The translations under genes and the position numbers were made by a program. This document shows positions 48,189 through 60,671 of a stretch of DNA of 64,000 nucleotides, piece by piece. The stretch spans positions 1-64,000 of the forward strand of contig CANQBC010000004.1 of NCBI GenBank assembly GCA_947589225.1. Direction: 5' to 3'. The stretch's first letter is position 1. Each line of letters starts with the position of its first letter. Under the pieces are notes generated by a model. The model was not told where the DNA came from. It saw only the letters and a list, made by a program, of their open reading frames with translations, and did not search any database. The stretch comes from an uncultured Oscillospiraceae bacterium (lineage in GTDB: Bacteria > Bacillota > Clostridia > Oscillospirales > Oscillospiraceae).

Positions 48189-49982
48189 TTGAAAAATAAA
48201 CATCGGCGTTTGGACGGGCAGACCGCCCTCGCCCTTTTTGTGACCGCGCTGTCGCTCACAGCCGTGGGGATTTTCGCGTATTTCACCGTGTGGAGCGCGG
48301 ACGATTACCTGTACGCCACCTTCCTTGACGACGGGCTTAAAAACTACGCGCGCCTTCTGGCGTATCATTACAAAAGCTTCAACGGCCGCGTCATCGTACA
48401 CATCGCGGCGCAGATCATCCTGAACTTCGGCCCCTGGCTCTTTGCGCTCGTCTGTGTCTCCCTCTGCGCGGCCATTCCGGCCCTTTCCGCGCTGGCCGAC
48501 GGTCAGGCGCGGAGCCGGACGCCCCTCTGCGTGGCCATATTCACCGCGGGCTTTCTCGCCATACCGGCGGGAGCGCTCAGCCAGGGCGTATACTGGATCT
48601 CGGCTTTTTGCAACTATATGCTCCCCACCGCCATGATGTGCCTTCTCCTCTTTACGGGGCTTTGCGCGCCGGAGGGGAGGTCGTGGCCGCGCCGTCTCTT
48701 TCCGATCCTGGCCGTCCTGTGCGGGGCGACCACCGAGCAGTCGGGGACCGTGGCCTTGCTGCTGACGGCGTATTTTGCCGTCAAGGCCGTTGTGAGGCGC
48801 CGGGGGCGCGTTTCAGCCCTGTCCGGCCTTGCCGGGGCGGCTTTCGGACTCTGGACGGTATTCCATTCACCCGCCACAAGCGCGCGGGCATCGGACGAGG
48901 CGTCTGTCAGGTCGCTCTCGGAGCTTGCCGGCCGCGTTTCAGACTGGCTCTACGTGTCCGCGAAGCAGCTCTCCATGGGTTGGCTCATCCCGCTGGCGCT
49001 GGCGGCGCTCTTCGTTCTCACCGGCCTCGAGGCCGAAAAGCGCCGGCACGGACTGAAATGGGCCTTTTGCGGGCCCGCCCTTTTGGCGCTGGGGGCTCTT
49101 TTTTGGGACTCCCAGTGGCTTTTCGCGGCGCTTCTTGTGCTGGCGGGGCTTGACGGGGCGGCGCTCATTGCGCTCAAGCGGGAGTGCCCCGGACTTCTTG
49201 TGTTCATGGGCCTCGCTTCCCTGACGGTACTCGTCACCACCACCAGCCTCGCCGGAAGGACGGCGCTGCCCATGTGCGTATATCTCCTGGCGGCGGTGTC
49301 GGTGACGCTGGCAGGCGCGGATGTGAAAAAACCGGCCATCGGCCGGTGCCTTCCGGCGGCGCTTATGTGCGCAAGCCTTATATCCGCCGTCCCAATGGCC
49401 AGGGGCTGGGCCTACAATTGGGAAACCGAGCGTATAAACCGGGAAAACGCGCAAATCGCCCGTGATACCGGTCACCTTGACTATTGCCTTGACTACGACT
49501 ACCGGTATACCTGGATCAAGATCGACGTGATGTTCGCCAACGAATACCTGCGTGTCCACGGCCTCGACCCGGAAGGGACGGAGATCAGCTTCTACACACG
49601 CTCCCGCCCCCGCACATATGCCGCCGGGCAGGAGCAGTACCCGGCCTACCGCACCACGGACGGTAAGGTGTATTTCCATCTGCGCGTCCTGGAGGCGTTC
49701 GGCGGGACGATCATCCCCCGGGAGGGCTTTTCGGGCTTTGACCATCTGACCGTCACCCTGCCCTGGATGAGCGCCGACATGGACACCGACTGGACCGACC
49801 GCGTCGCCTTCTCGGCGACCGATGGGAGAACGTGCGCCGCCCGGCGGATCACAGCGGAAAACAGGACGTGGCTGCCGGCGGAGGTGTATACCGGCTTTTT
49901 CGGGCTTGAGATCGACTATGACGAGGCGGGCGACGCCTATTTCATATCCGTTCCGGAGGTGGAGCAGAGAGATGGGAACTGA
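48189..49982 (+). CDS. Polytopic membrane protein, DUF6056-like, paralogue 2
   Basis: The 597-residue product has the same plan as its neighbours: span 1, SADDYLYATFLDDGL, SFNGRVIVHIAAQ, ISAFCNYMLPTAMM, CGATTEQSGTVA, spans to about 410, then a soluble domain with DYDYRYTWIK and RTWLPAEVYTGFFGLEIDYDE. It starts at TTG 48189, eight bases after GGAAGGGGG. It is 21 bases after paralogue 1 and its end overlaps paralogue 3 by 11 bases. Function is unknown beyond the GT-C-like pattern. Confidence 0.65.
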   Translation: MKNKHRRLDGQTALALFVTALSLTAVGIFAYFTVWSADDYLYATFLDDGLKNYARLLAYHYKSFNGRVIVHIAAQIILNFGPWLFALVCVSLCAAIPALSALADGQARSRTPLCVAIFTAGFLAIPAGALSQGVYWISAFCNYMLPTAMMCLLLFTGLCAPEGRSWPRRLFPILAVLCGATTEQSGTVALLLTAYFAVKAVVRRRGRVSALSGLAGAAFGLWTVFHSPATSARASDEASVRSLSELAGRVSDWLYVSAKQLSMGWLIPLALAALFVLTGLEAEKRRHGLKWAFCGPALLALGALFWDSQWLFAALLVLAGLDGAALIALKRECPGLLVFMGLASLTVLVTTTSLAGRTALPMCVYLLAAVSVTLAGADVKKPAIGRCLPAALMCASLISAVPMARGWAYNWETERINRENAQIARDTGHLDYCLDYDYRYTWIKIDVMFANEYLRVHGLDPEGTEISFYTRSRPRTYAAGQEQYPAYRTTDGKVYFHLRVLEAFGGTIIPREGFSGFDHLTVTLPWMSADMDTDWTDRVAFSATDGRTCAARRITAENRTWLPAEVYTGFFGLEIDYDEAGDAYFISVPEVEQRDGN

Positions 49983-51780
49983 GAAGAAAGCGGGAGAAAG
50001 GGCGGGCCGCGTCCTCGTCTGGTGTGCTCTCGGGTTCTGCCTTGCCGCGGCGGCGTATCTGGCGTACACCACGCTTCCGTGCGCCGACGACTTCTGGTAC
50101 AGGAACTTCTTTAATTACGGCTTTAAAAAATATCTGTCGACCATGAAGCTCCACTACGAGACCTTCAACGGACGCGTGCTGGTTCATGTGGCGGCCCAGG
50201 CGATCCTGAAGGCGGGAAACGCGGCTTATGTCCTGACGGTGCTGGCGTTTATCCTCGCGGCGCCCTCCATGGCGCTCCTGTCCCGAGGCGGGGAGAAGCG
50301 GGACTTGCCCGTGGCGGCGGCCCTCTTCGCCGGCGGCTTTCTGCTCATTCCCAAGGACTTCATGGTAATGGCGGTGCTGTGGATCTCCTCCTTTTGCAAT
50401 CACGTCCTCCCCGTTGCGCTGATCTGCGGCCATGTGTGGTTGTTTACCTCCGCCCTGCGGAGGGAAAGGAACGGAGCCCTTGTCTGGCTCGGCTGTCTGA
50501 CCCTGGCCTTCGCCTGCGGCGCCACCACCGAGCAGACGGGGCTCGCCGCGGTGCTCCTGACGGGGTATTTCTTTGTGAAAAGCCTGTTCCTCCGCCGGGG
50601 CAGGTGGATGACCTTCCTGTCCACGCTCCTGTCGGCGGCGGGCATCGCGTCGGTGTTTCTCTCTCCGGCCACCATGACCAGGATGCGCCTTGGCACAAAG
50701 CTGGGCGGGCCGGTCGCGATCATCCGGGGGATGTACGCAAACCTCGGCCCCGCCGCCGCGGAGCTGACAAATTCGCCGCTGCTCCCCATACTTTTCGCCG
50801 CCCTTTACATGCTGGCGGCGGCAAAGCTTTCCGAGAGGCTTCGCGGGCGCTGGCCGCTGTACGCCGGCGGCGTCCTCTCCCTGCTGGCGCTGAGTACGCC
50901 GTTCCTGTCCGGAGGCGCCCTCACCGCGCTCTTTACGCTCCTGTGCTTTGCGGCGGCGGCTTCGGGCGTCGCGCTGATGGTGGCGGGGGAGGAGACGCCC
51001 GGACTGCTCGTGCTTTTCGGAATGGGAATGCTGGCCATTATCCTGACCACGGATATGGCCCAGAACAGGACGCTCCTGCCCACCTGCCTCTACGTTCTGG
51101 CCGCCGTGTCCTCCATGGCGCCCGAGAGGCTCCGCCGGCTTTCCCCTTTATGCTCCGGGCTCGTCTCCGCGGCCCTGGCTCTGACGGCGCTGGCGATGCT
51201 CGTCCCCACGCTGCGCGGCGTGACCTACAACTACGGCGTGGAGCTTGAGAACCGGGAAAACGAAAGGCGCGCCCACGAGACGGGGCGGCTCAACTACCGG
51301 ATCGATTACGATTTCGATTACACCTACATCAAGATGAGCGCCAGCTTTGAGCCGGCGTATCTGGAGGGCATCGGGCTCGACGCCGATACCGAGATACACT
51401 ACTACGGGGTGGAGTGGCCGAACCTCTTCGTGGACGGGGAGCTTCTCTTCCCGGTCTACCCCGGCCCGGACGGGCTTCCCATGTTCCACATCCGCCTCAT
51501 AGAGGAATTTGGCGGCCGTGTTGATCCGATAAATGGGGATTACGGCCATCTGGAGCTGACGATGCCGGGGATCCGCTGTGTTATGACCACGGAGTCGGAG
51601 AACCGATCTACCTTTACGTGGACCGGCGCGGACGGGACGGAGCACACCGCAAGCTATGCGAGGGTGTTTGCCGAGTCCAGGACATGGTTCCCGATGGAGC
51701 TGTTCACCGAGGTTTTCGGGCTGTCCTTCAGCTTTGACGAGGCGAACAACGCCTGGACTGCCGCCGGCCCGGCGGAGTGA
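49972..51780 (+). CDS. Polytopic membrane protein, DUF6056-like, paralogue 3
   Basis: The 602-residue product shows CADDFWYRNFFNYGFKK after span 1, FNGRVLVHVAAQAIL, SSFCNHVLPVALI, CGATTEQTGLAAVLLTGYFFVKSLF and a terminal soluble domain ending RTWFPMELFTEVFGLSFSFDE. ATG 49972 lies inside the end of paralogue 2 (11-base overlap) and has GGAGGTGG upstream, which implies coupled translation. It is closer in length and motif details to paralogue 4 than to 1 or 2. Confidence 0.65.
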   Translation: MGTEKKAGERAGRVLVWCALGFCLAAAAYLAYTTLPCADDFWYRNFFNYGFKKYLSTMKLHYETFNGRVLVHVAAQAILKAGNAAYVLTVLAFILAAPSMALLSRGGEKRDLPVAAALFAGGFLLIPKDFMVMAVLWISSFCNHVLPVALICGHVWLFTSALRRERNGALVWLGCLTLAFACGATTEQTGLAAVLLTGYFFVKSLFLRRGRWMTFLSTLLSAAGIASVFLSPATMTRMRLGTKLGGPVAIIRGMYANLGPAAAELTNSPLLPILFAALYMLAAAKLSERLRGRWPLYAGGVLSLLALSTPFLSGGALTALFTLLCFAAAASGVALMVAGEETPGLLVLFGMGMLAIILTTDMAQNRTLLPTCLYVLAAVSSMAPERLRRLSPLCSGLVSAALALTALAMLVPTLRGVTYNYGVELENRENERRAHETGRLNYRIDYDFDYTYIKMSASFEPAYLEGIGLDADTEIHYYGVEWPNLFVDGELLFPVYPGPDGLPMFHIRLIEEFGGRVDPINGDYGHLELTMPGIRCVMTTESENRSTFTWTGADGTEHTASYARVFAESRTWFPMELFTEVFGLSFSFDEANNAWTAAGPAE

Positions 51781-51788
51781 GAGAGAAC

Positions 51789-51807
51789 GGCGCCGCGAAG
51801 CGGCGCC
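51789..51807 (+). other. Intergenic hairpin between paralogues 3 and 4
   Basis: GGCGCCGC/GCGGCGCC around GAA fills the only gap in the second half of the operon. It has no T-tract, so it may tune mRNA stability or expression of paralogue 4. Confidence 0.5.
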
Positions 51808-51823
51808 AAGGGGAAATGGGACA

Positions 51824-53644
51824 ATGGAGACTAAAGAGAAAAAACGTATCGATATTGGCGGCGTCCTCACATGGGCCGCGCTGACGGCGGGACTTGTCTG
51901 CTGCGGGTATCTGGCCGCGACCACGGCAAGGAGCGCCGACGATTACTGGTACAGGCTCTTTTTGCGCTATGATCTTCGCAAATTCGTGGACACCGTCCTG
52001 GAGCATTATAGGACCTTCAACGGGAGGACGCTTGTCCATCTGGCGGCGGCCGTCATACTGAGGATCGGCAACGGGGCCTTCGCGGCCGTGATGCTGGCGT
52101 CGGTAACGGCCATCCCGGCGCTGACGTTCCGGGCACGCGGCGGCGGCAGGAGGGATCTGCCCCTGGCGGCCGCCCTCTTTACCGCGGGGTTTCTGGCGAT
52201 GCCGGTAAACTTTATGGTCATGGGTGTCCTGTGGATCTCCGCCTTTTGCAACTACGTTCTCCCCACGGCCATGATATGCCTTGAGATCCGGCTTTTCGAG
52301 CGCGTATCGGCGGCGGAGAATACCGGCGCGTGGACACGCGCCCTCTGTGTCGCCTGGGCCTTCGCCTGCGGCGCCACCACGGAGCAGTCGGGCCTCGCGG
52401 CCACTGTTTTAATGGGCTGGTTTTTCGTAAAAAGCTTACATATCCGCAAAAACCGCGGATTTACCGCCCTCTCGCTTTTGGCCTCCTCGGCGGGAGTGCT
52501 TTCCGTATTCTGTTCTCCGGCTACGCTGGACAGATTCCGCAAGGGGGCGAAGCTCGGGAACATCCTCGACACCATCGGCGGCATGTACAACGACCTTGGC
52601 CCCGCCGCCGCGGAGTTTACGGCGTCGGTGCTTGTGCCGGCGCTTTTCGCGGCGGTATTCCTGCTCACGGCGCTGAGGCTCAAAAGGCGGCTCCACAAGA
52701 GCTGGCCCCTGTATGTGGGCGCGGCCTTGGCGGCGGTGTCGCTGTGTACGTTCCTCATGGGAGGGGAGCTGCTGAGAGCCTCCTTCACATCCATGTGCTT
52801 CCTCGCGGCGGCGGTGGGAATCGCCCTCATCGCCCTGAAGGACGAGACGCCGGGGATCCTCACCCTTCTGGGCATGGGGACGCTGGCCATCATCCTTCTG
52901 ACCAACGAGGCCCACGACAGGACGCTGGTTCCCACCGTCCTCTACCTTCTGGCGGCGGTGTCCGTCATGGCGCCGGAGGAGCTTCGCCGTCTGCCCGGCG
53001 CCCTGCCCGGCGCGATACCCGCAACGCTCGTCCTGGCCTCGGCGATCGCTTTGATCCCCATGTTCAGGGGCGTGACCGCCAACTACGCCGTGGAGCGGCA
53101 GAACAACGCCGTGGCTGCCGCCGCCCGGGAGACCGGCGTCATGAGGTACTGCGTGGACTACGACTACCGGTACACGTACTCCAAAATAAACACCACATTT
53201 GACGAGAGATATCTGGAATACTGGGGCCTGGACGCTTCCACGCCCATTGAGTTTTACACAAACGGGGCCGTGAGGAAGAATCTCTTCGCCCACGGACGGT
53301 ATCTCTATCCCACCCTGTGCAACGGAAACGGGGACACGCTCATTCATATTCGCATCATCGAGGACTTCGGCGGCAGTGTGGAGAATGTGGGCAAGACCTT
53401 CACCGAGCTTATGCTGACCCTTGGCGACACGGTGTGCCATATGACCACGGACGGCGATGGGATGTCCACCTTCACCTGGACGGACGGAAACGGCGCCGTC
53501 CGGACGCGGGTCTACCCCCGCGTGGCCGACGAGTCGCGGACCTGGTTCCCCATGGAGCTTTACGAGGATGCCTTCGGCCTCACGTTCACCTACGATGGCA
53601 AGCTCCCGGGCTGGATCGTCGCCTGGCCGGGAGAGCGGGAATAA
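51824..53644 (+). CDS. Polytopic membrane protein, DUF6056-like, paralogue 4
   Basis: The 606-residue product has SADDYWYRLFLRYDLRKF after span 1, TFNGRTLVHLAAA, SAFCNYVLPTAMI, CGATTEQSGLAATVLMGWFFVKSL, several further spans, and a soluble domain with DYDYRYTYSKINTTFDERYLEYWG and RTWFPMELYEDAFGLTFTYDG. ATG 51824 is chosen because it gives the same N-terminal architecture as the paralogues. It is the last gene of the cluster and is convergent with the YolD-polymerase operon. Confidence 0.65.
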   Translation: METKEKKRIDIGGVLTWAALTAGLVCCGYLAATTARSADDYWYRLFLRYDLRKFVDTVLEHYRTFNGRTLVHLAAAVILRIGNGAFAAVMLASVTAIPALTFRARGGGRRDLPLAAALFTAGFLAMPVNFMVMGVLWISAFCNYVLPTAMICLEIRLFERVSAAENTGAWTRALCVAWAFACGATTEQSGLAATVLMGWFFVKSLHIRKNRGFTALSLLASSAGVLSVFCSPATLDRFRKGAKLGNILDTIGGMYNDLGPAAAEFTASVLVPALFAAVFLLTALRLKRRLHKSWPLYVGAALAAVSLCTFLMGGELLRASFTSMCFLAAAVGIALIALKDETPGILTLLGMGTLAIILLTNEAHDRTLVPTVLYLLAAVSVMAPEELRRLPGALPGAIPATLVLASAIALIPMFRGVTANYAVERQNNAVAAAARETGVMRYCVDYDYRYTYSKINTTFDERYLEYWGLDASTPIEFYTNGAVRKNLFAHGRYLYPTLCNGNGDTLIHIRIIEDFGGSVENVGKTFTELMLTLGDTVCHMTTDGDGMSTFTWTDGNGAVRTRVYPRVADESRTWFPMELYEDAFGLTFTYDGKLPGWIVAWPGERE

Positions 53645-53756: not shown

Positions 53757-54146
53757 TCACCTTCCCCCCAGATCCACGATGTCCCGTGTCTCAATTTTGG
53801 CGTTTGTCAGCAGAAGGACGCCGGAGGCGGGGTGGCTGGCGATGTACTCCCCCGTGGTGACGCGGTAGCGGCCCAGATCGGCGCCGTTCTCGGTTTTCAG
53901 GCTCTCAAACCATGTCACCGTCACCGGGTCGCCCCGCCGGAAGGAGCGCAGGCGCCGGTCGAGCTGTTCGGCCCTGTCCGGGGCGATCTCCGGGCGGGGT
54001 GCGTACCTCAGCTCCCGGGCCGCCAGGGAGTCGTCGAGGCCCCGGAGCGCGGAGAAGGGCGCGAAGATTTTGGCCCGGTCGGCCCGCGCCATTTTGGGGT
54101 AGCCGCTGCTGCGGCGGGCGTTGATGATGTCCTGATAGATGTTCAT
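53757..54146 (-). CDS. YolD-like protein
   Basis: The 129-residue protein has the YolD-like core of Clostridia, RSSGYPKMARADRAKIFAPFSALRGLDDSL (residues 12-41), then a basic region and a beta-strand pattern VTVTWFESL...GRYRVTTGEYI. YolD-like proteins are encoded with Y-family polymerases and are proposed to be UmuD-like or accessory partners. The ATG overlaps the polymerase stop codon by 4 bases (ATGA), showing a tight operon. Confidence 0.8.
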   Translation of the reverse strand: MNIYQDIINARRSSGYPKMARADRAKIFAPFSALRGLDDSLAARELRYAPRPEIAPDRAEQLDRRLRSFRRGDPVTVTWFESLKTENGADLGRYRVTTGEYIASHPASGVLLLTNAKIETRDIVDLGGR

Positions 54147-55498
54147 TTTCTGTGTCCTCCTATCTGGCCGTGCCGCTCCCTGGCGGTGGCCCCCTCCAAA
54201 AAATCGTGGCCCTTTAAAAGGGCGTTTTTGCCGTATTTTCTGTGTATGTCCAGCACGGCCTTCTGAAGCGCGCTCTCCCGCGCCTCGCGCTCATGGCCGC
54301 TGAACATGTCAAGCTGTTCCGTCCGCTCCTCCGCGCCGGAGAGGCGGATAGCGGTGAGGTTGATCCGACGCACCGTGAGCTCCCGGTTGACGATCCGGTC
54401 GTAGAGCTCCAGAGCCGCCCCCACCACCCGTGACAGGGCGTCCGTGGGACTGCCCAGGGGCTGGGTTCCGTGGGCGGAGACGGGGACTTTTCTCCCATAG
54501 CGGTCGGATCTGACGGCGCCGCCCCAGGCGGCGTTTTCCCGGTCGTAGCCGACGTGGAGCACCATGGCCCCGGCGATGAGGCCCCTGTCCGTCAGATCCA
54601 GCGCCAGCTCCTCGGCCATCTCCCGGACGATGATCCGGGCTTCGCCAAATGTGTAGGGCCGGGACAGCACCTGCCCGGTGCTTCGGGAGGTGTCTGACGG
54701 GCGGTAGGACTTGATGTCCTCCATGGTGCAGCTCTCCTCCCCCCAGGCGTGGTCTATGAGGATCTCCGCGTCCACGCCGAAGGTTCGGAAAAGCGCGCCC
54801 TCGTCCCGAAGGCTCAGCCGCGCCAGATCCCCCATGGTAAACACGCCCAGCCTCGCCAGCCGCGCCGCCGTGCCCCCCGCCACCATCCAGAAATCGGTGA
54901 TGGGCCGGTGATCCCAGAGGAGCCGGCGGTAGCTCAGCTCGTCAAGCTCCGCTATCCGCACCCCCTCCCGATCGGGCTTCGCCCTCTTGGCCACGATGTC
55001 CATGGCGATCTTGGCAAGATACAGGTTCGTGCCCAGACCCGCCGTGGCGGTGATGCCCGTGCGGGCCAGTACGTCCCGGATCATGGCCATGGCAAGCTCC
55101 CGGGCCGTCACTTTCAGGGGCTTTACGTATTTGGCCGCGTCGATGAACACCTCGTCAATGGAGTAGATGTGTATGTCCTCCGGGGAGACGTATTTGAGGT
55201 AGGTGGCGTAGATTTTGGCGGATGTCTCCACGTAGAGGCCCATCCGCGGCCGGGCGATAATGAAATCCACGTCCTCCCCGGTGCGGGCCTTCACCTCCCG
55301 GAGCTTTTCATAGACCTCAAAAAGCCGGGGCCTTCCCGGCACGCCCAGAGCCTTGAGGGCCGGGGACACGGCCAGGCAGATGGTCTTGTCCGTTCGCGTT
55401 TCGTCCGCCACTACGAGCTTCGCCGCCAGCGGGTCGAGCCCCCTGTCCACGCACTCCACCGAGGCGTAAAAGGATTTGAGATCGATGCAGATAAACAT
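54143..55498 (-). CDS. Y-family DNA polymerase (UvrX/UmuC-like)
   Basis: The 451-residue enzyme has the palm motifs ICIDLKSFYASVE (Asp6) and YSIDEVFID (Asp105, Glu106), a thumb and a little-finger domain, and a probable sliding-clamp motif QLDMF at residues 395-399. It is a translesion polymerase of the UvrX/UmuC type that commonly pairs with YolD-like proteins. ATG 55498 begins MFICID and has GAGGCGG nearby; a longer frame to 55612 lacks a good site. Its promoter faces that of an Xre/ImmA-type gene pair. Confidence 0.88.
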   Translation of the reverse strand: MFICIDLKSFYASVECVDRGLDPLAAKLVVADETRTDKTICLAVSPALKALGVPGRPRLFEVYEKLREVKARTGEDVDFIIARPRMGLYVETSAKIYATYLKYVSPEDIHIYSIDEVFIDAAKYVKPLKVTARELAMAMIRDVLARTGITATAGLGTNLYLAKIAMDIVAKRAKPDREGVRIAELDELSYRRLLWDHRPITDFWMVAGGTAARLARLGVFTMGDLARLSLRDEGALFRTFGVDAEILIDHAWGEESCTMEDIKSYRPSDTSRSTGQVLSRPYTFGEARIIVREMAEELALDLTDRGLIAGAMVLHVGYDRENAAWGGAVRSDRYGRKVPVSAHGTQPLGSPTDALSRVVGAALELYDRIVNRELTVRRINLTAIRLSGAEERTEQLDMFSGHEREARESALQKAVLDIHRKYGKNALLKGHDFLEGATARERHGQIGGHRK

Positions 55499-55690
55499 AT
55501 ACGCCGCCTCTTTGGCCCCCGGCGGGGGCCGCCCCGGCTTTTCGCCGCGGCTGCGGGGGACGAACGCGCCGCCCCCCGCCTTCCTTATCATTCTACGATA
55601 CAGGGTGTCCAAAAAACGGACACCTTGGCGCCGGCGCTCACGCCCTGGCGCGCGGACTTCGGTGTGAATACCGGCTCCAAAAGATCCCTC

Positions 55691-55812
55691 TTGACAAAAT
55701 GGGAAGTATGATGTATACTATGGCAAACAAACTTCTCACCTATGGCCATATTATAGGCGATTATACTTCCCTTGTCAAGGGGCCAATTGAAATTAGTGAG
55801 AAGTAAAACTTC
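55691..55812. promoter_or_regulatory. Divergent promoters with repeated GAAGT operator half-sites
   Basis: Plus promoter: TTGACA (55691-55696), TATACT (55714-55719), 17-bp spacer, toward the Xre gene. Minus promoter: TTGACA (55773-55778), TATAAT (55750-55755), 17-bp spacer, toward the polymerase. Each spacer contains GGGAAGTAT(G/A)AT (55701-55712 and, inverted, 55760-55771). Further half-sites are ACTTC at 55731-55735 and a dyad GAAGT-AAA-ACTTC at 55800-55812. This 330-base gap contains no gene. Confidence 0.7.
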
Positions 55813-55828
55813 CCAGGGGGGCGCGGGA

Positions 55829-56221
55829 ATGAAATTTGGCGAAAAAATAAGGGCCCTGAGGCTCCAAAAGAAAATATCCCAGGAGGAGGCGGCGCGGGCG
55901 GCGGGCATCTCCCGCAGGGCCTACGGCTCCTACGAGCAGGACGGGGTATATCCCCGCAACCGGGAGATATACGCGCGTCTGGCGGCGCTCTTTGCGTGCG
56001 ATGTAAACTACCTTCTCACCGAGGATGAGGACTTTGTGGCCAGAGCGGGGGAGAAGTACGGGGCGCGGGGCCGCGCGCAGGCCCAGGAGCTGGTGCGGGA
56101 GGCCACGGCTCTCTTTGCCGGCGGCGATCTTGCCGACGAGGACAAGGACGAGATGCTCCGGGCCATCCAGGAGGCGTACTGGATAGCCAAGGAGCGCAAC
56201 CGGAAATACGCGGGTAAGTGA
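55829..56221 (+). CDS. Xre family repressor, ImmR-like
   Basis: The 130-residue protein has a Cro/CI helix-turn-helix at residues 3-60 (GEKIRALRLQKKISQEEAARAAGISRRAYGSYEQDG) and a helical C-terminal region. It is followed after 1 base by an ImmA/IrrE-type metallopeptidase, as in ImmR-ImmA and DdrO-IrrE pairs, in which the peptidase cleaves the repressor. The divergent target is a mutasome operon. ATG 55829 has AGGGGGG upstream. Confidence 0.82.
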   Translation: MKFGEKIRALRLQKKISQEEAARAAGISRRAYGSYEQDGVYPRNREIYARLAALFACDVNYLLTEDEDFVARAGEKYGARGRAQAQELVREATALFAGGDLADEDKDEMLRAIQEAYWIAKERNRKYAGK

Positions 56222-56222
56222 T

Positions 56223-56753
56223 ATGTATATGAAACCCATTGAGATCGCGAAGCGCGCGGACGCCCTGATAAACTGGTGCGGCGGACGTGACCCCGGGGAC
56301 ATCGCGCGGGAGCTGGGGATCGAGGTATTGCCCCGGGAGTTTTCCGCCCAGAAGGGGGCCTACACGATCATTATGCGGGTACCGTTTATCTTCATCAAAT
56401 CCGACCTTGACCCGGTGACGGAGAAGATCGTTCTGGCCCATGAGCTTGGCCACCACGTCCTCCACCGCCGTGAGGCCGAGGAGAAGGGCGGCTTTCAGGA
56501 ATTTGACCTTTTTAACGCCCTCTCCGACCGCATGGAGTACGAGGCCAACGTCTTTGCCGCCCAGCTGACCCTGCCCGATGAGGAGATCCTGGAATACATC
56601 CAGCGGGGGTTTGATACCCGCAAGATCGCCGCCGCCATGGGCTCCGACGTGAATCTGGTGGCCCTGAAGGCCGATCTGCTCATCGCCCGCGGCCACGCCC
56701 TTATACGCCAGGATCACAGGACGGGCTTTCTGTCCTCCCATGCCGCCGGATGA
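56223..56753 (+). CDS. ImmA/IrrE family metallopeptidase
   Basis: The 176-residue protein has the zinc motif HELGHH at residues 73-78 (His73, Glu74, His77) and the downstream EYEANVFAAQLTLPDEEI, which supplies the third ligand region of COG2856 peptidases. These cleave a cognate Xre repressor on a damage or signalling cue. The gene begins one base after the repressor gene, so the pair is certainly co-expressed. Its activating signal cannot be seen. Confidence 0.88.
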   Translation: MYMKPIEIAKRADALINWCGGRDPGDIARELGIEVLPREFSAQKGAYTIIMRVPFIFIKSDLDPVTEKIVLAHELGHHVLHRREAEEKGGFQEFDLFNALSDRMEYEANVFAAQLTLPDEEILEYIQRGFDTRKIAAAMGSDVNLVALKADLLIARGHALIRQDHRTGFLSSHAAG

Positions 56754-57048: not shown

Positions 57049-57465
57049 CTATTGCTCCGCATACTTTGCGTAATCCGCCCATAATGCCCTTGCAAACCCA
57101 TTCAGATAAGTCTGATCGATCTCATTTTCGAAAGCGAGCTCCTGCGCGTACCCGCAGGCGTTTGCCTTATGAAGATCGCCCGTAATTTTGATATGGCCTC
57201 CACGGCAAGCCGTAAACTCCACATAACAGTGTGATCCATACGGTTCTTCCAGCCTCGCGGAGCCTTGAAGCCTTTCACACAGCCGGCTCAGCGATGCGGA
57301 AAAAATCGCAAGTCCTCGAACATCCATATCCATCACAGACTCCCCGGAAAATCCACAGCTGGATACCCTTACCTTCAAGCTGGTATTCACCGGGAAAAGC
57401 AGATCATCCCGATGTACTTCCGGCCTTAATTCCAAAAGGAAATTTTCTGCTTCCAACCGATACAT
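57049..57465 (-). CDS. Hypothetical protein, WapI-like immunity family candidate
   Basis: The 138-residue protein is predicted to be alpha/beta and cytosolic (LEAENFLLELRPEVHRDD, GFSGESVMDMDVRGLAIFSASLSRLCERLQGSARLEEPYGSHCYVEFTACRGGHIKITG). The pattern recalls small proteins annotated as WapI-type immunity proteins, but I cannot confirm this and no toxin gene is adjacent. GGGAGCG precedes the ATG. Codon use is less GC-rich than in the neighbouring operons, and it lies in an accessory-looking stretch. Confidence 0.6.
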   Translation of the reverse strand: MYRLEAENFLLELRPEVHRDDLLFPVNTSLKVRVSSCGFSGESVMDMDVRGLAIFSASLSRLCERLQGSARLEEPYGSHCYVEFTACRGGHIKITGDLHKANACGYAQELAFENEIDQTYLNGFARALWADYAKYAEQ

Positions 57466-58876: not shown

Positions 58877-60313
58877 TTATATTGAAGAAGATGCTATACG
58901 AACTTGAACGTTAGCCTCAAACGCATCCCCATCTTTATTAGGATTAATTACAATCCATCTGCGTCCAGGGCTGTTTCCTTCGTTATCAGTGGTCATCTCG
59001 ATAATACATTGTTCACCAGGAGCGATTGTCTTTGGACCTGCCATAACATCTCTGCTACTGGCATTTCCCCGCTTAACTAAGACTTGAATTGAGTACTCAC
59101 CAGTATTTTCAATCATTACATGGTAAGCAGAACAATCGTCAGTAGTATCAAAGTAGTCATACCATGCGCTTGTTCCGTTTGAAGTAGCAATCTGATCTAT
59201 GCCAAGGCGAGCGGTGCTAATGTCGTTAAAAATTGACGTTCCATCAATCTCTGTGTCAGGAGTATCGTAATTGCTACTGTTACTAATATTTATTGCGCTT
59301 TGCGCATCTGGGGTGTTTCTATCATTTACAGAATCACTGATTTTCCCATCTGGTTTGCCGGGTTCTGCTGTTACCGGATTAGTTACGAAACACACCGTCA
59401 CCACAGCACAAGCGGCAACAGCCGCGACAATGATCCAAAACGCCGGTTTTTTGTAATGCAGCACCTTTTTCACTCTTTCTTTTACGCCAACTTCTCCAAA
59501 GGCCAGCGGGCAGACCGTGACCAGCCGCCGCCCGGAACTGCACTCTAACAGAGCGGAGGAATATTGCTTTTTCCCGTCCACGTCCATCCGCCGGATGACC
59601 TTTTCGTCGCAGGCCAGCTCAATGTCTCTGCACAACAGCACATAAGCCACCCAGCACAGCGGGTTGAACCAGTGGACCGCCAGGATGAGAAAGCCCAGCG
59701 GTTTCCACCAGTGGTCACGCCTTGCCAAATGTGCCTTTTCGTGGGCAATTACCGGTTTCATGGAAGCTGCGTCCATGTTGGATGGCAGATAAATCCTGGG
59801 CCGGACCAATCCCAGAATAAATGGAGATCTTACATGATCGCACAGAAAGATGTTTTCTTCATAGGGGACTCTTTCCGCAACACTCCGATGTACCCGTACA
59901 TAACTGATTAGAGCATATAGCAGCATAACGGCTATACCGATGAGCCAGATCGCTGACAGAACAGATGTCCAGACATAAAGCGGGTTGACGCTGCCCGCCG
60001 GATTCGGCGCGAAGGCTTCTCCCAGAACAGGGTTGACCACGTTGTTGACGGCGGGGATGCCGCTACTGACAGCGGGCGTTTCGTATTGGATATTATGGGC
60101 GTTGAAGGTCTCGGCGCTGGGGATCAGGCTCATCACGCTCTCGAGGGAGACGGGGACTGCCAACCGCAAAGCGACGAGCCCCCACAAAAGAACGGCGATC
60201 CATTTTGGTGCCTTCTTCAGCAGGAGCCGAAGTAACACCACCGCTAAAATCAGCCAGCTTGCGGCAATGCTCATGTTCAAAATCCTCACGAATGGTTCCA
60301 CCATATTATTCAC
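58877..60313 (-). CDS. BlaR1/MecR1-type M56 membrane metallopeptidase with novel C-terminal domain
   Basis: The 478-residue protein has four spans (about 14-34, 38-54, 115-138 and 305-322) and the M56 zinc site HEKAH at residues 191-195, with DIELACDEKV as the downstream Glu/Asp region. BlaR1 normally ends in a penicillin-binding sensor; here the outside domain is about 150 residues long and contains no SxxK motif. It starts with a Ser/Asn-rich linker and has a beta-rich segment (YSIQVLVKRGN, GEQCIIEMTTDNEG). It should sense something else and inactivate the BlaI-type repressor, whose gene overlaps by 8 bases. Confidence 0.85.
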   Translation of the reverse strand: MNNMVEPFVRILNMSIAASWLILAVVLLRLLLKKAPKWIAVLLWGLVALRLAVPVSLESVMSLIPSAETFNAHNIQYETPAVSSGIPAVNNVVNPVLGEAFAPNPAGSVNPLYVWTSVLSAIWLIGIAVMLLYALISYVRVHRSVAERVPYEENIFLCDHVRSPFILGLVRPRIYLPSNMDAASMKPVIAHEKAHLARRDHWWKPLGFLILAVHWFNPLCWVAYVLLCRDIELACDEKVIRRMDVDGKKQYSSALLECSSGRRLVTVCPLAFGEVGVKERVKKVLHYKKPAFWIIVAAVAACAVVTVCFVTNPVTAEPGKPDGKISDSVNDRNTPDAQSAINISNSSNYDTPDTEIDGTSIFNDISTARLGIDQIATSNGTSAWYDYFDTTDDCSAYHVMIENTGEYSIQVLVKRGNASSRDVMAGPKTIAPGEQCIIEMTTDNEGNSPGRRWIVINPNKDGDAFEANVQVRIASSSI

Positions 60314-60671
60314 CTGCCTTGTCGATCAGCTCACGAATCTCGTTGATTTCCTCGGCTGTCAGCTTCTTCTCGCTGGTAAAGGCGGCAAGAAAAGCCGGAA
60401 GCGAACCCGCAAAGGTCTCGTCCACATACTTCTTGCTGTGAAGGGCATAGAACTCCTGCCGGGACAGGAGGGAGGTCACCACACCGTTATTGTTCTGGAA
60501 CAGCCCCTTGTCGCAAAGCCGGCGCAGTACCGTGTGCGTCGTCGTCCGCTTCCAGGTGAGTTTTGCCGAGGCGAGCTTTATAAGCTCGGCGGTCGTCACC
60601 GGCTCCCTCTCCCAAATGATGTCCGCAAAGCGGGCCTCCACAGCCCCCAACTGAATTTCCGCCATAAGCAC
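60306..60671 (-). CDS. BlaI/MecI/CopY family repressor
   Basis: The 121-residue protein is a winged-helix repressor with the family start IQLGAVEARFADIIWEREPVTTAELIKLA, TWKRTTTHTVLRRLCDKGLF (recognition helix) and a C-terminal dimerisation and cleavage region. It represses its own operon through the TACA-TGTA dyads at 60682-60721. The M56 peptidase is co-transcribed with an 8-base overlap. Confidence 0.92.
   Translation of the reverse strand: MLMAEIQLGAVEARFADIIWEREPVTTAELIKLASAKLTWKRTTTHTVLRRLCDKGLFQNNNGVVTSLLSRQEFYALHSKKYVDETFAGSLPAFLAAFTSEKKLTAEEINEIRELIDKAGE

Follow-up and report, generated by a model that had tools for sequence, protein, structure and literature searches.

The cassette and its genes

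The window analysed here, a stretch of 64,000 nucleotides from contig CANQBC010000004.1 of an uncultured Oscillospiraceae bacterium, contains at positions 53757 to 56753 a cassette of two gene pairs which are transcribed away from each other. One pair encodes a UvrX-like Y-family DNA polymerase and a YolD-like accessory protein, the other an Xre repressor and a metallopeptidase of the M78 (ImmA/IrrE) family. A preliminary description, made from the sequence alone, had proposed this arrangement, and the coordinates and Pfam domains agree with it. In our reading the cassette is probably a protease-triggered DNA damage switch of the ImmR/ImmA type with a mutasome as its cargo, i.e. an autonomous mutagenesis cassette. 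The four genes are the following.

53757..54146, minus strand: YolD-like accessory gene (129 amino acids), second gene of the polymerase operon
54143..55498, minus strand: Y-family DNA polymerase, UvrX-like (451 amino acids), IMS and IMS_C domains, ATG start at 55498
55829..56221, plus strand: Xre repressor (130 amino acids), N-terminal helix-turn-helix (HTH) and two C-terminal helices with a LFAGG[DE] loop between them
56223..56753, plus strand: M78 (ImmA/IrrE, COG2856) metallopeptidase (176 amino acids), HELGH motif

The polymerase matches the Pfam domains IMS (4.7e-24) and IMS_C (4.7e-12) as well as phrog_1268 (2.2e-67), and it accounts for the single Y-family polymerase (IMS) match of the window genome, which also has RecA. 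Residues D115, E116, Q395 and F399 are invariant in an alignment of 25 sequences; in this family such residues serve as catalytic acids and as a clamp-binding motif. The 3' end of the polymerase gene and the start of the yolD-like gene share an ATGA overlap, as had been noted before. The window YolD-like protein matches no Pfam family, and PF08863 is matched by 2 of 20 aligned YolD-like sequences, the window protein being one of the 20. Its name therefore rests on position and on homology to YolD-like proteins beside other UvrX-like polymerases. A Y-family polymerase with conserved acidic residues and a YolD partner in one operon correspond to the composition of a UvrX-YolD mutasome.

The Xre protein matches solely HTH families in Pfam (HTH_3, 4.7e-9) and lacks the S24 peptidase domain of autoproteases such as LexA and HdiR. 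M78 matches PF06114 (Peptidase_M78, 1.2e-17) at residues 29-141. Its HEXXH motif reads HELGH, as it does in all 15 genus loci that were read, and HEXXH is present in 61 of 64 M78 open reading frames (ORFs) of the wider collection. A small Xre repressor with an HTH and C-terminal helices, adjoined by an M78 peptidase with HEXXH, has the make-up of an ImmR/ImmA-type pair.

Linkage within the genus

We surveyed 60 related genomes including that of the window, 34 of which belong to its genus. A polymerase of the window lineage (67-100% identity) is encoded in 17 of the 60 genomes and is kept at 67-89% in the 16 relatives. Xre and M78 lie divergent from it in 17 of 17 genus loci, although for L011 and L012 the fetched sequence stops inside M78, and the Xre proteins are 82-92% identical to the window copy. 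The match coordinates of polymerase and yolD abut in an ATGA-like manner in 15 of 17 loci (exceptions L004 and L017). Three loci (L008, L012 and L014) have an extra ORF of about 120 codons between polymerase and promoter, which is the first gene of the polymerase operon; the one in L014 matches PF01042 (RidA/L-PSP), and the other two look alike by eye.

The surroundings of the cassette differ between species. On the yolD side 7 of 105 pairs have anything in common within 4 kb and on the M78 side 13 of 105, chiefly inside the cluster L266, L267 and L269-L271. When the window was compared to 15 relative loci, the cassette alone was matched in all 15, and farther neighbours were matched in L265 and L275 only.

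The neighbours checked by Pfam comprise two DUF6056 proteins, a WapI-like protein, an M56 peptidase and a BlaI-type repressor, with no genes of an integrative and conjugative element (ICE) among them. The two DUF6056 proteins are tandem paralogs (49822-53644, plus strand), and the gene at 57049-57465 (minus strand) matches a WapI-like immunity protein family (PF24716, 3.4e-8). A BlaR1-type M56 peptidase and a BlaI/MecI-type repressor (58877-60671, minus strand) form a second protease-repressor pair about 2 kb off the cassette.

Distribution of the repressor in the order and the phylum

With a profile built from the 17 Xre proteins of the genus, 73 Xre places were found in 66 of 394 genomes of the order. 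All but G086, which lies at a contig start, were classed by neighbour profiles (72 places), a gap of at most 0.9 kb being taken as adjacent or divergent. M78 is adjacent on the Xre strand at 63 of the 72 places. A Y-family polymerase is divergent from Xre at 34, three of them in the genus. These 34 consist of 29 with M78, three without it according to the script, and L180 and L193, which the script had classed as 'other' because the Xre frame is open farther upstream and which were reclassed by coordinates. At 8 of 72 places the polymerase is downstream on the same strand, a class which contains the partial polymerase matches L170 and L187. With a wider Xre profile, 28 of 398 genomes of the phylum yielded 30 places. 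All 30 have an adjacent M78. The polymerase is divergent at 12 of them, farther off in L255 and L257 (the window and L158 are counted already in other sets), and on the same strand at one.

The wiring of Xre and M78 to the polymerase is real, conserved and widespread. The conserved linkage for which the preliminary description had suggested to look was recovered in the genus, in the order and in the phylum, and it rules out a chance neighbourhood. The polymerases of other genera that were compared directly are about 22-25% identical to that of the window and therefore represent a second Y-family type; the four which were checked all match IMS at 2.9e-40 or better. Most of the other UvrX-like polymerase loci (84 of 93) lack both regulators in the surrounding 2.5 kb when narrow profiles are used. 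One locus (L105, Oscillospiraceae bacterium, named contig) encodes Xre, M78, polymerase and YolD-like protein on one strand.

When 100 Xre proteins (72 + 28) are placed on a tree and labelled by whether the polymerase is divergent, 25 changes of the label are required, of which starred branches force 7 or more; none of 500 shuffles was as low (mean 32.6). Since there are few columns and many open forks, the number of changes is to be read as a range, in which gains and losses of the divergent polymerase are not told apart.

At several Xre-M78 loci without divergent polymerase (L162, L183, L185, L209, L210, L212, L214, L280 and L282) a second, longer HEXXH protein is encoded on the opposite strand, and it is annotated as ImmA/IrrE in the last two.

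Phages and plasmids

Xre has 16 matches among phage and plasmid records (10 phage, 6 plasmid), and 7 of the 9 records which were opened have a Y-family polymerase near Xre. The polymerase is divergent in the phages NatCom_19828 and NatCom_34192, where a metalloprotease lies beside the repressor, and in the Evtepia phage NatCom_42594, where an M78-like frame follows the repressor. It is also divergent on a plasmid of Monoglobus pectinilyticus, and downstream on the same strand on a second plasmid of this species and on p16192 of Campylobacter sp. RM16192, which belongs to another phylum. Plasmid pRUMAL02 of Ruminococcus albus 7 has repressor, ImmA/IrrE, polymerase and YolD-like protein on one strand. 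The records from Vescimonas and Streptococcus dysgalactiae contain the Xre-M78 pair with no polymerase in view, and the ICE-like contig L222 also bears the switch without a polymerase.

Predicted promoters and candidate operators of the divergent region

The divergent region between polymerase and xre comprises 330 bp, in which two promoters and four candidate operator sites were predicted.

55691..55719, plus strand: predicted xre-M78 promoter, TTGACA (55691-55696), 17 bp, TATACT (55714-55719); aligned in 17 loci
55700..55708, no strand: candidate operator half-site 1, TGGGAAGTA, inside the spacer of the xre promoter
55731..55739, no strand: candidate operator half-site 2, ACTTCTCAC, between the -10 boxes; ACTTCCCA in the other 16 genus loci
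55750..55778, minus strand: predicted polymerase-yolD promoter, TTGACA (55773-55778), 17 bp, TATAAT (55750-55755); aligned in 17 loci
55760..55771, no strand: candidate operator half-site 3, ATTATACTTCCC, inside the spacer of the polymerase promoter
55797..55815, no strand: candidate operator 4, TGAGAAGTAAAACTTCCCA, a 19-bp imperfect palindrome in the xre leader

Half-sites of the GGGAAGT type, predicted from sequence alone, are conserved in the spacers of both promoters. The two predicted promoters face each other. Transcription is expected to start near 55726 on the plus strand and near 55743 on the minus strand, with about 16 bp between the two predicted starts, so that simultaneous use of both promoters by RNA polymerase should be impossible; the transcripts would overlap at their 5' ends only, and each RNA polymerase would have to cross the other promoter.

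For 46 loci (the 17 of the genus and 29 of the 31 divergent ones outside it, L190 and L211 being left out) we looked for such a pair and found it in 44; its outer span is 82-118 bp, and its mismatches add up to no more than 3. Among the shuffles of these 44 loci none of 2200 mononucleotide and none of 2200 dinucleotide versions scored as well, and a pair of any kind with 3 mismatches or fewer occurred in 3 of the 2200 dinucleotide shuffles. Operator sequences vary by group and the layout is constant; by eye, ACGCAATT is seen in L205 and L220 and GGTGAAA in L149 and L150. Face-to-face promoters are not special to polymerase loci, as 23 of 38 Xre loci without divergent polymerase have them with at most 3 mismatches (a count without shuffle control). 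The layout is therefore a feature of the switch, with the polymerase as its cargo.

The searches for a genome-wide regulon gave no sign of one. With at most one mismatch GAAGTNNNACTTC is no more frequent than its reversed control (65 versus 144 per strand). The promoter-operator pattern TTGACANNNNGGGAAGT has 35 matches within two mismatches in the genome versus 24 in the control, and the exact pattern is present at the cassette only. The 450 bp upstream of recA in the window genome contain no operator sites.

LexA

YolD-polymerase operons are under the control of LexA (PMC6511836). HdiR, UmuDAb and the repressors known from Bacteroidetes, which take the place of LexA at translesion polymerases, are autoproteases of the S24 type that depend on RecA filaments (PMC8565304). 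The window genome gave no LexA match, compared to matches in 9 of 14 control genomes. As this genome is 97.3% complete, LexA is probably absent from it. Judged by eye, its four S24 matches look like relatives of signal peptidases and a lone S24 domain to which no HTH is attached. A full-length LexA-like match was found in none of the 17 genus genomes with the cassette, several of which have partial matches.

At none of 18 cassette loci does an exact GAACN4GTTC box lie within 600 bp upstream of the polymerase, and with one mismatch allowed it was found at 1 of 18 versus 3.0 expected. Among more distant polymerase relatives an exact LexA-type box is present within 250 bp at 9 of 75 loci versus 0.19 expected from shuffles; the 75 were taken from 80 named polymerase loci, L031 being counted with the cassette loci and four near contig starts being left out. 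A LexA box controlling the operon, which the preliminary description had named as evidence against its proposal if found in relatives, is thus missing in its exact form at the cassette loci. For this reason, and as no LexA was detected in the window genome, LexA control of the cassette was rejected. The claimed independence from LexA fits the genus. It does not fit in the same way elsewhere, as LexA exceeds the cut-off in 10 of 30 non-genus genomes with the arrangement (compared to 14 of 26 non-genus relatives), so that LexA and the switch are not strictly exclusive.

A second polymerase lineage of the genus, about 47-54% identical, has a LexA-like S24 repressor as its divergent neighbour; this was seen in six genomes (G003, G007, G020, G025, G026 and G028). 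G008, which has a contig-end polymerase fragment of unclear lineage and a LexA-like gene on the same strand, is outside the six. A swap of regulators at one orthologous site is not supported, the LexA-linked polymerases being only about half identical to that of the window and having other neighbours. The LexA-like repressors of the genus seem by eye to use a GGAAGCANNNTGCTTCC-like palindrome and not the usual GAACNNNNGTTC box (L019, L024-L028).

Sequence and fold of repressor and peptidase

As modelled with AlphaFold2, Xre has the HTH and two C-terminal helices (67-95 and 103-123) with a short loop between them. In 20 diverse sequences the mean share of the commonest residue is 0.92 at residues 95-100 (LFAGG[DE]) and 0.51-0.65 in the seven Xre helices, the recognition helix included. 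The inter-helix linker is therefore the most conserved of the Xre segments measured. F[AS]GG is present in 88 of 100 Xre proteins. The best Foldseek match of the model is DdrO (6jq1, E 6.6e-3, TM 0.45), and its HTH matches CapH, DdrO and ImmR among many Xre domains. By sequence, the best PDB match of the Xre profile is the repressor of phage phi106 (9sf2, 1.2e-4).

The best PDB match of M78 by sequence is CapP (2e-4), with IrrE at 0.15. In a search with the M78 model (mean pLDDT 70.7) IrrE/PprI takes ranks 1, 2, 4 and 5 with weak E values of 0.04-0.17, and the last third of the model matches HTH domains. VIA-align, which has no IrrE among its rows, returned HTH-like matches to this last third only and was uninformative.

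Comparison with known systems

The preliminary description had drawn a parallel to ImmR-ImmA and DdrO-IrrE. Resemblance in sequence and fold supports this and extends it to CapH-CapP, although the fold matches are weak. In ICEBs1 of Bacillus subtilis, cleavage of ImmR takes place at F95-M96, inside the linker that separates its two predicted C-terminal helices (PMC8960796); the LFAGG[DE] loop of Xre has the matching position. The cargo there is an integrative conjugative element, whereas here it is a Y-family polymerase with a YolD-like protein. In Deinococcus the IrrE (PprI) peptidase cuts the C-terminal domain of DdrO and thereby derepresses repair genes (PMC8072749, PMC10904395), the cut being at L106-R107 in a loop (PMC8072749). 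DdrO and Xre are similar in fold and in length (129 versus 130 amino acids). However, IrrE has a GAF-like domain, which PprI uses in sensing single-stranded DNA (ssDNA), its activator (PMC10904395), and such a sensor domain is missing from our M78, of which Pfam covers residues 29-141. The DdrO regulon also comprises many genes including recA, whereas here the pattern is exact at one locus, and the translesion cassette of Deinococcus is under LexA and not DdrO (PMC8072749).

CapH-CapP of the cyclic-oligonucleotide-based anti-phage signaling system (CBASS) combines an ssDNA-activated protease with a repressor controlling an immune operon (PMC10904395). Its effector is anti-phage, and the CapP chain has 291 amino acids compared to the 176 of M78. 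A damage-responsive repressor acting on a translesion polymerase is also known from HdiR-UmuC in lactococci and streptococci, UmuDAb in Acinetobacter and LexA-YqjW/YqjX in Bacillus, where the polymerase is sometimes the sole target (PMC8565304, PMC6511836). These repressors are S24 serine autoproteases, whereas repressor and metallopeptidase are two proteins here. DdiA of Myxococcus xanthus is an Xre-family regulator of a LexA-independent DNA damage response; according to its authors there is no sign that DdiA is proteolysed or regulates itself, and DinB rises independently of DdiA (PMC12288472). An Xre-ImmA/IrrE pair as linked regulator of a Y-family polymerase was not found in the full-text literature, a search which left most subscription papers and bioRxiv preprints outside its scope; within these limits the arrangement appears undescribed, and the preliminary description had known of no account of it either.

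Proposed mechanism and alternative explanations

Xre would bind to about four operators in the divergent region and repress the polymerase-yolD promoter as well as its own. The M78 peptidase would be activated, most likely by DNA damage as described for ImmA, IrrE and CapP, and would then cut Xre in the loop between the two C-terminal helices. Dimerization of the cut Xre should fail, and the UvrX-like polymerase and its YolD-like partner would be made. The gene content, the linkage, the layout of predicted promoters and half-sites and the lack of a detected LexA or LexA box are read from the sequences themselves. Repression, cleavage, damage signal and promoter competition are what we infer, and for cleavage and damage trigger this is the best inference from the well-studied relatives.

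Several observations weigh against this mechanism. The fold matches have best E values of 6.6e-3 and 4.2e-2 only, and the F[AS]GG motif is missing from 12 of the 100 Xre rows. With 176 amino acids M78 is too short for the additional GAF-like domain of PprI, so that the damage signal may differ. Of the places with the same kind of Xre 30 of 72 have no polymerase in view, and the cargo of the Xre-M78 switch is thus not fixed; this class is inflated by contig-end loci and, in the phylum set, by flanks of 1.5 kb. The divergent polymerase of L211 is an open piece of 88 codons only, L142 and L221 (2 of the 46 loci) have no face-to-face promoters, and the genome search with GAAGTNNNACTTC gave no excess of further operators over the reversed control. 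Finally, outside the genus LexA occurs in some of the genomes that have the switch. The earlier interpretation is partly supported: the linkage and the missing LexA boxes agree with it, and its LexA independence fits the genus.

One alternative starts from mobile elements. The cassette could derive from the immunity region of a temperate phage or ICE, in which Xre and M78 silence the element and the polymerase, as one of its early genes, is of use to the element and not to the host upon induction. The same switch is found without polymerase on the ICE-like contig, on plasmids, and in gut phages with a divergent Y-family polymerase, and the flanks of the cassette differ between species. But the neighbours checked by Pfam, to which the annotation of the window was confined, are not element genes, only the cassette is matched in all 15 relatives, and the polymerase is well kept in the genus. 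We regard this origin as a serious possibility, if the less probable one. Xre-M78 could also be a toxin-antitoxin pair and a mere neighbour of the polymerase operon, since COG2856-Xre pairs are listed among toxin-antitoxin-like modules with their targets left open (PMC2701414). That is very improbable: the polymerase occupies the same divergent place at nearly half of the classed order loci (34/72), and the two operons have interlocking promoters with half-sites in common, which would not be expected of a bystander pair.

A further explanation accepts the switch and replaces its trigger, so that zinc, a peptide signal, oxidative stress or cell contact would induce the polymerase. ImmA of ICEBs1 also acts when element-free cells are near (PMC8960796), IrrE answers to zinc in one model (PMC8072749), and M78 has no room for a GAF-like domain. 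However, ImmR-ImmA, DdrO-IrrE and CapH-CapP respond at least partly to DNA damage, the cargo is a lesion-bypass polymerase, and a LexA-like repressor holds the equivalent place in the same genus, which makes a cue other than damage rather unlikely. For the protease-triggered damage switch, linked versions on the plasmids of Ruminococcus albus 7 and Monoglobus pectinilyticus offer material with which it can be tested.

In a broader and more tentative view, for which we would claim less than an even chance, Y-family polymerases from two or more subfamilies may repeatedly have come under the control of ImmR/ImmA-type switches, both in the phylum and in phages and plasmids. The facing promoters would then give an all-or-nothing and possibly bistable state of the polymerase, and with it a transient, LexA-free mutator fraction of the cells. 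If a two-protein metalloprotease switch indeed acts on the polymerase, mutation would be inducible without the usual SOS repressor LexA. This would explain how mutagenesis can be induced in bacteria that give no LexA match, among them the genus studied here, and hosts and mobile elements would trade one regulatory module between the control of transfer, lysogeny and mutation.

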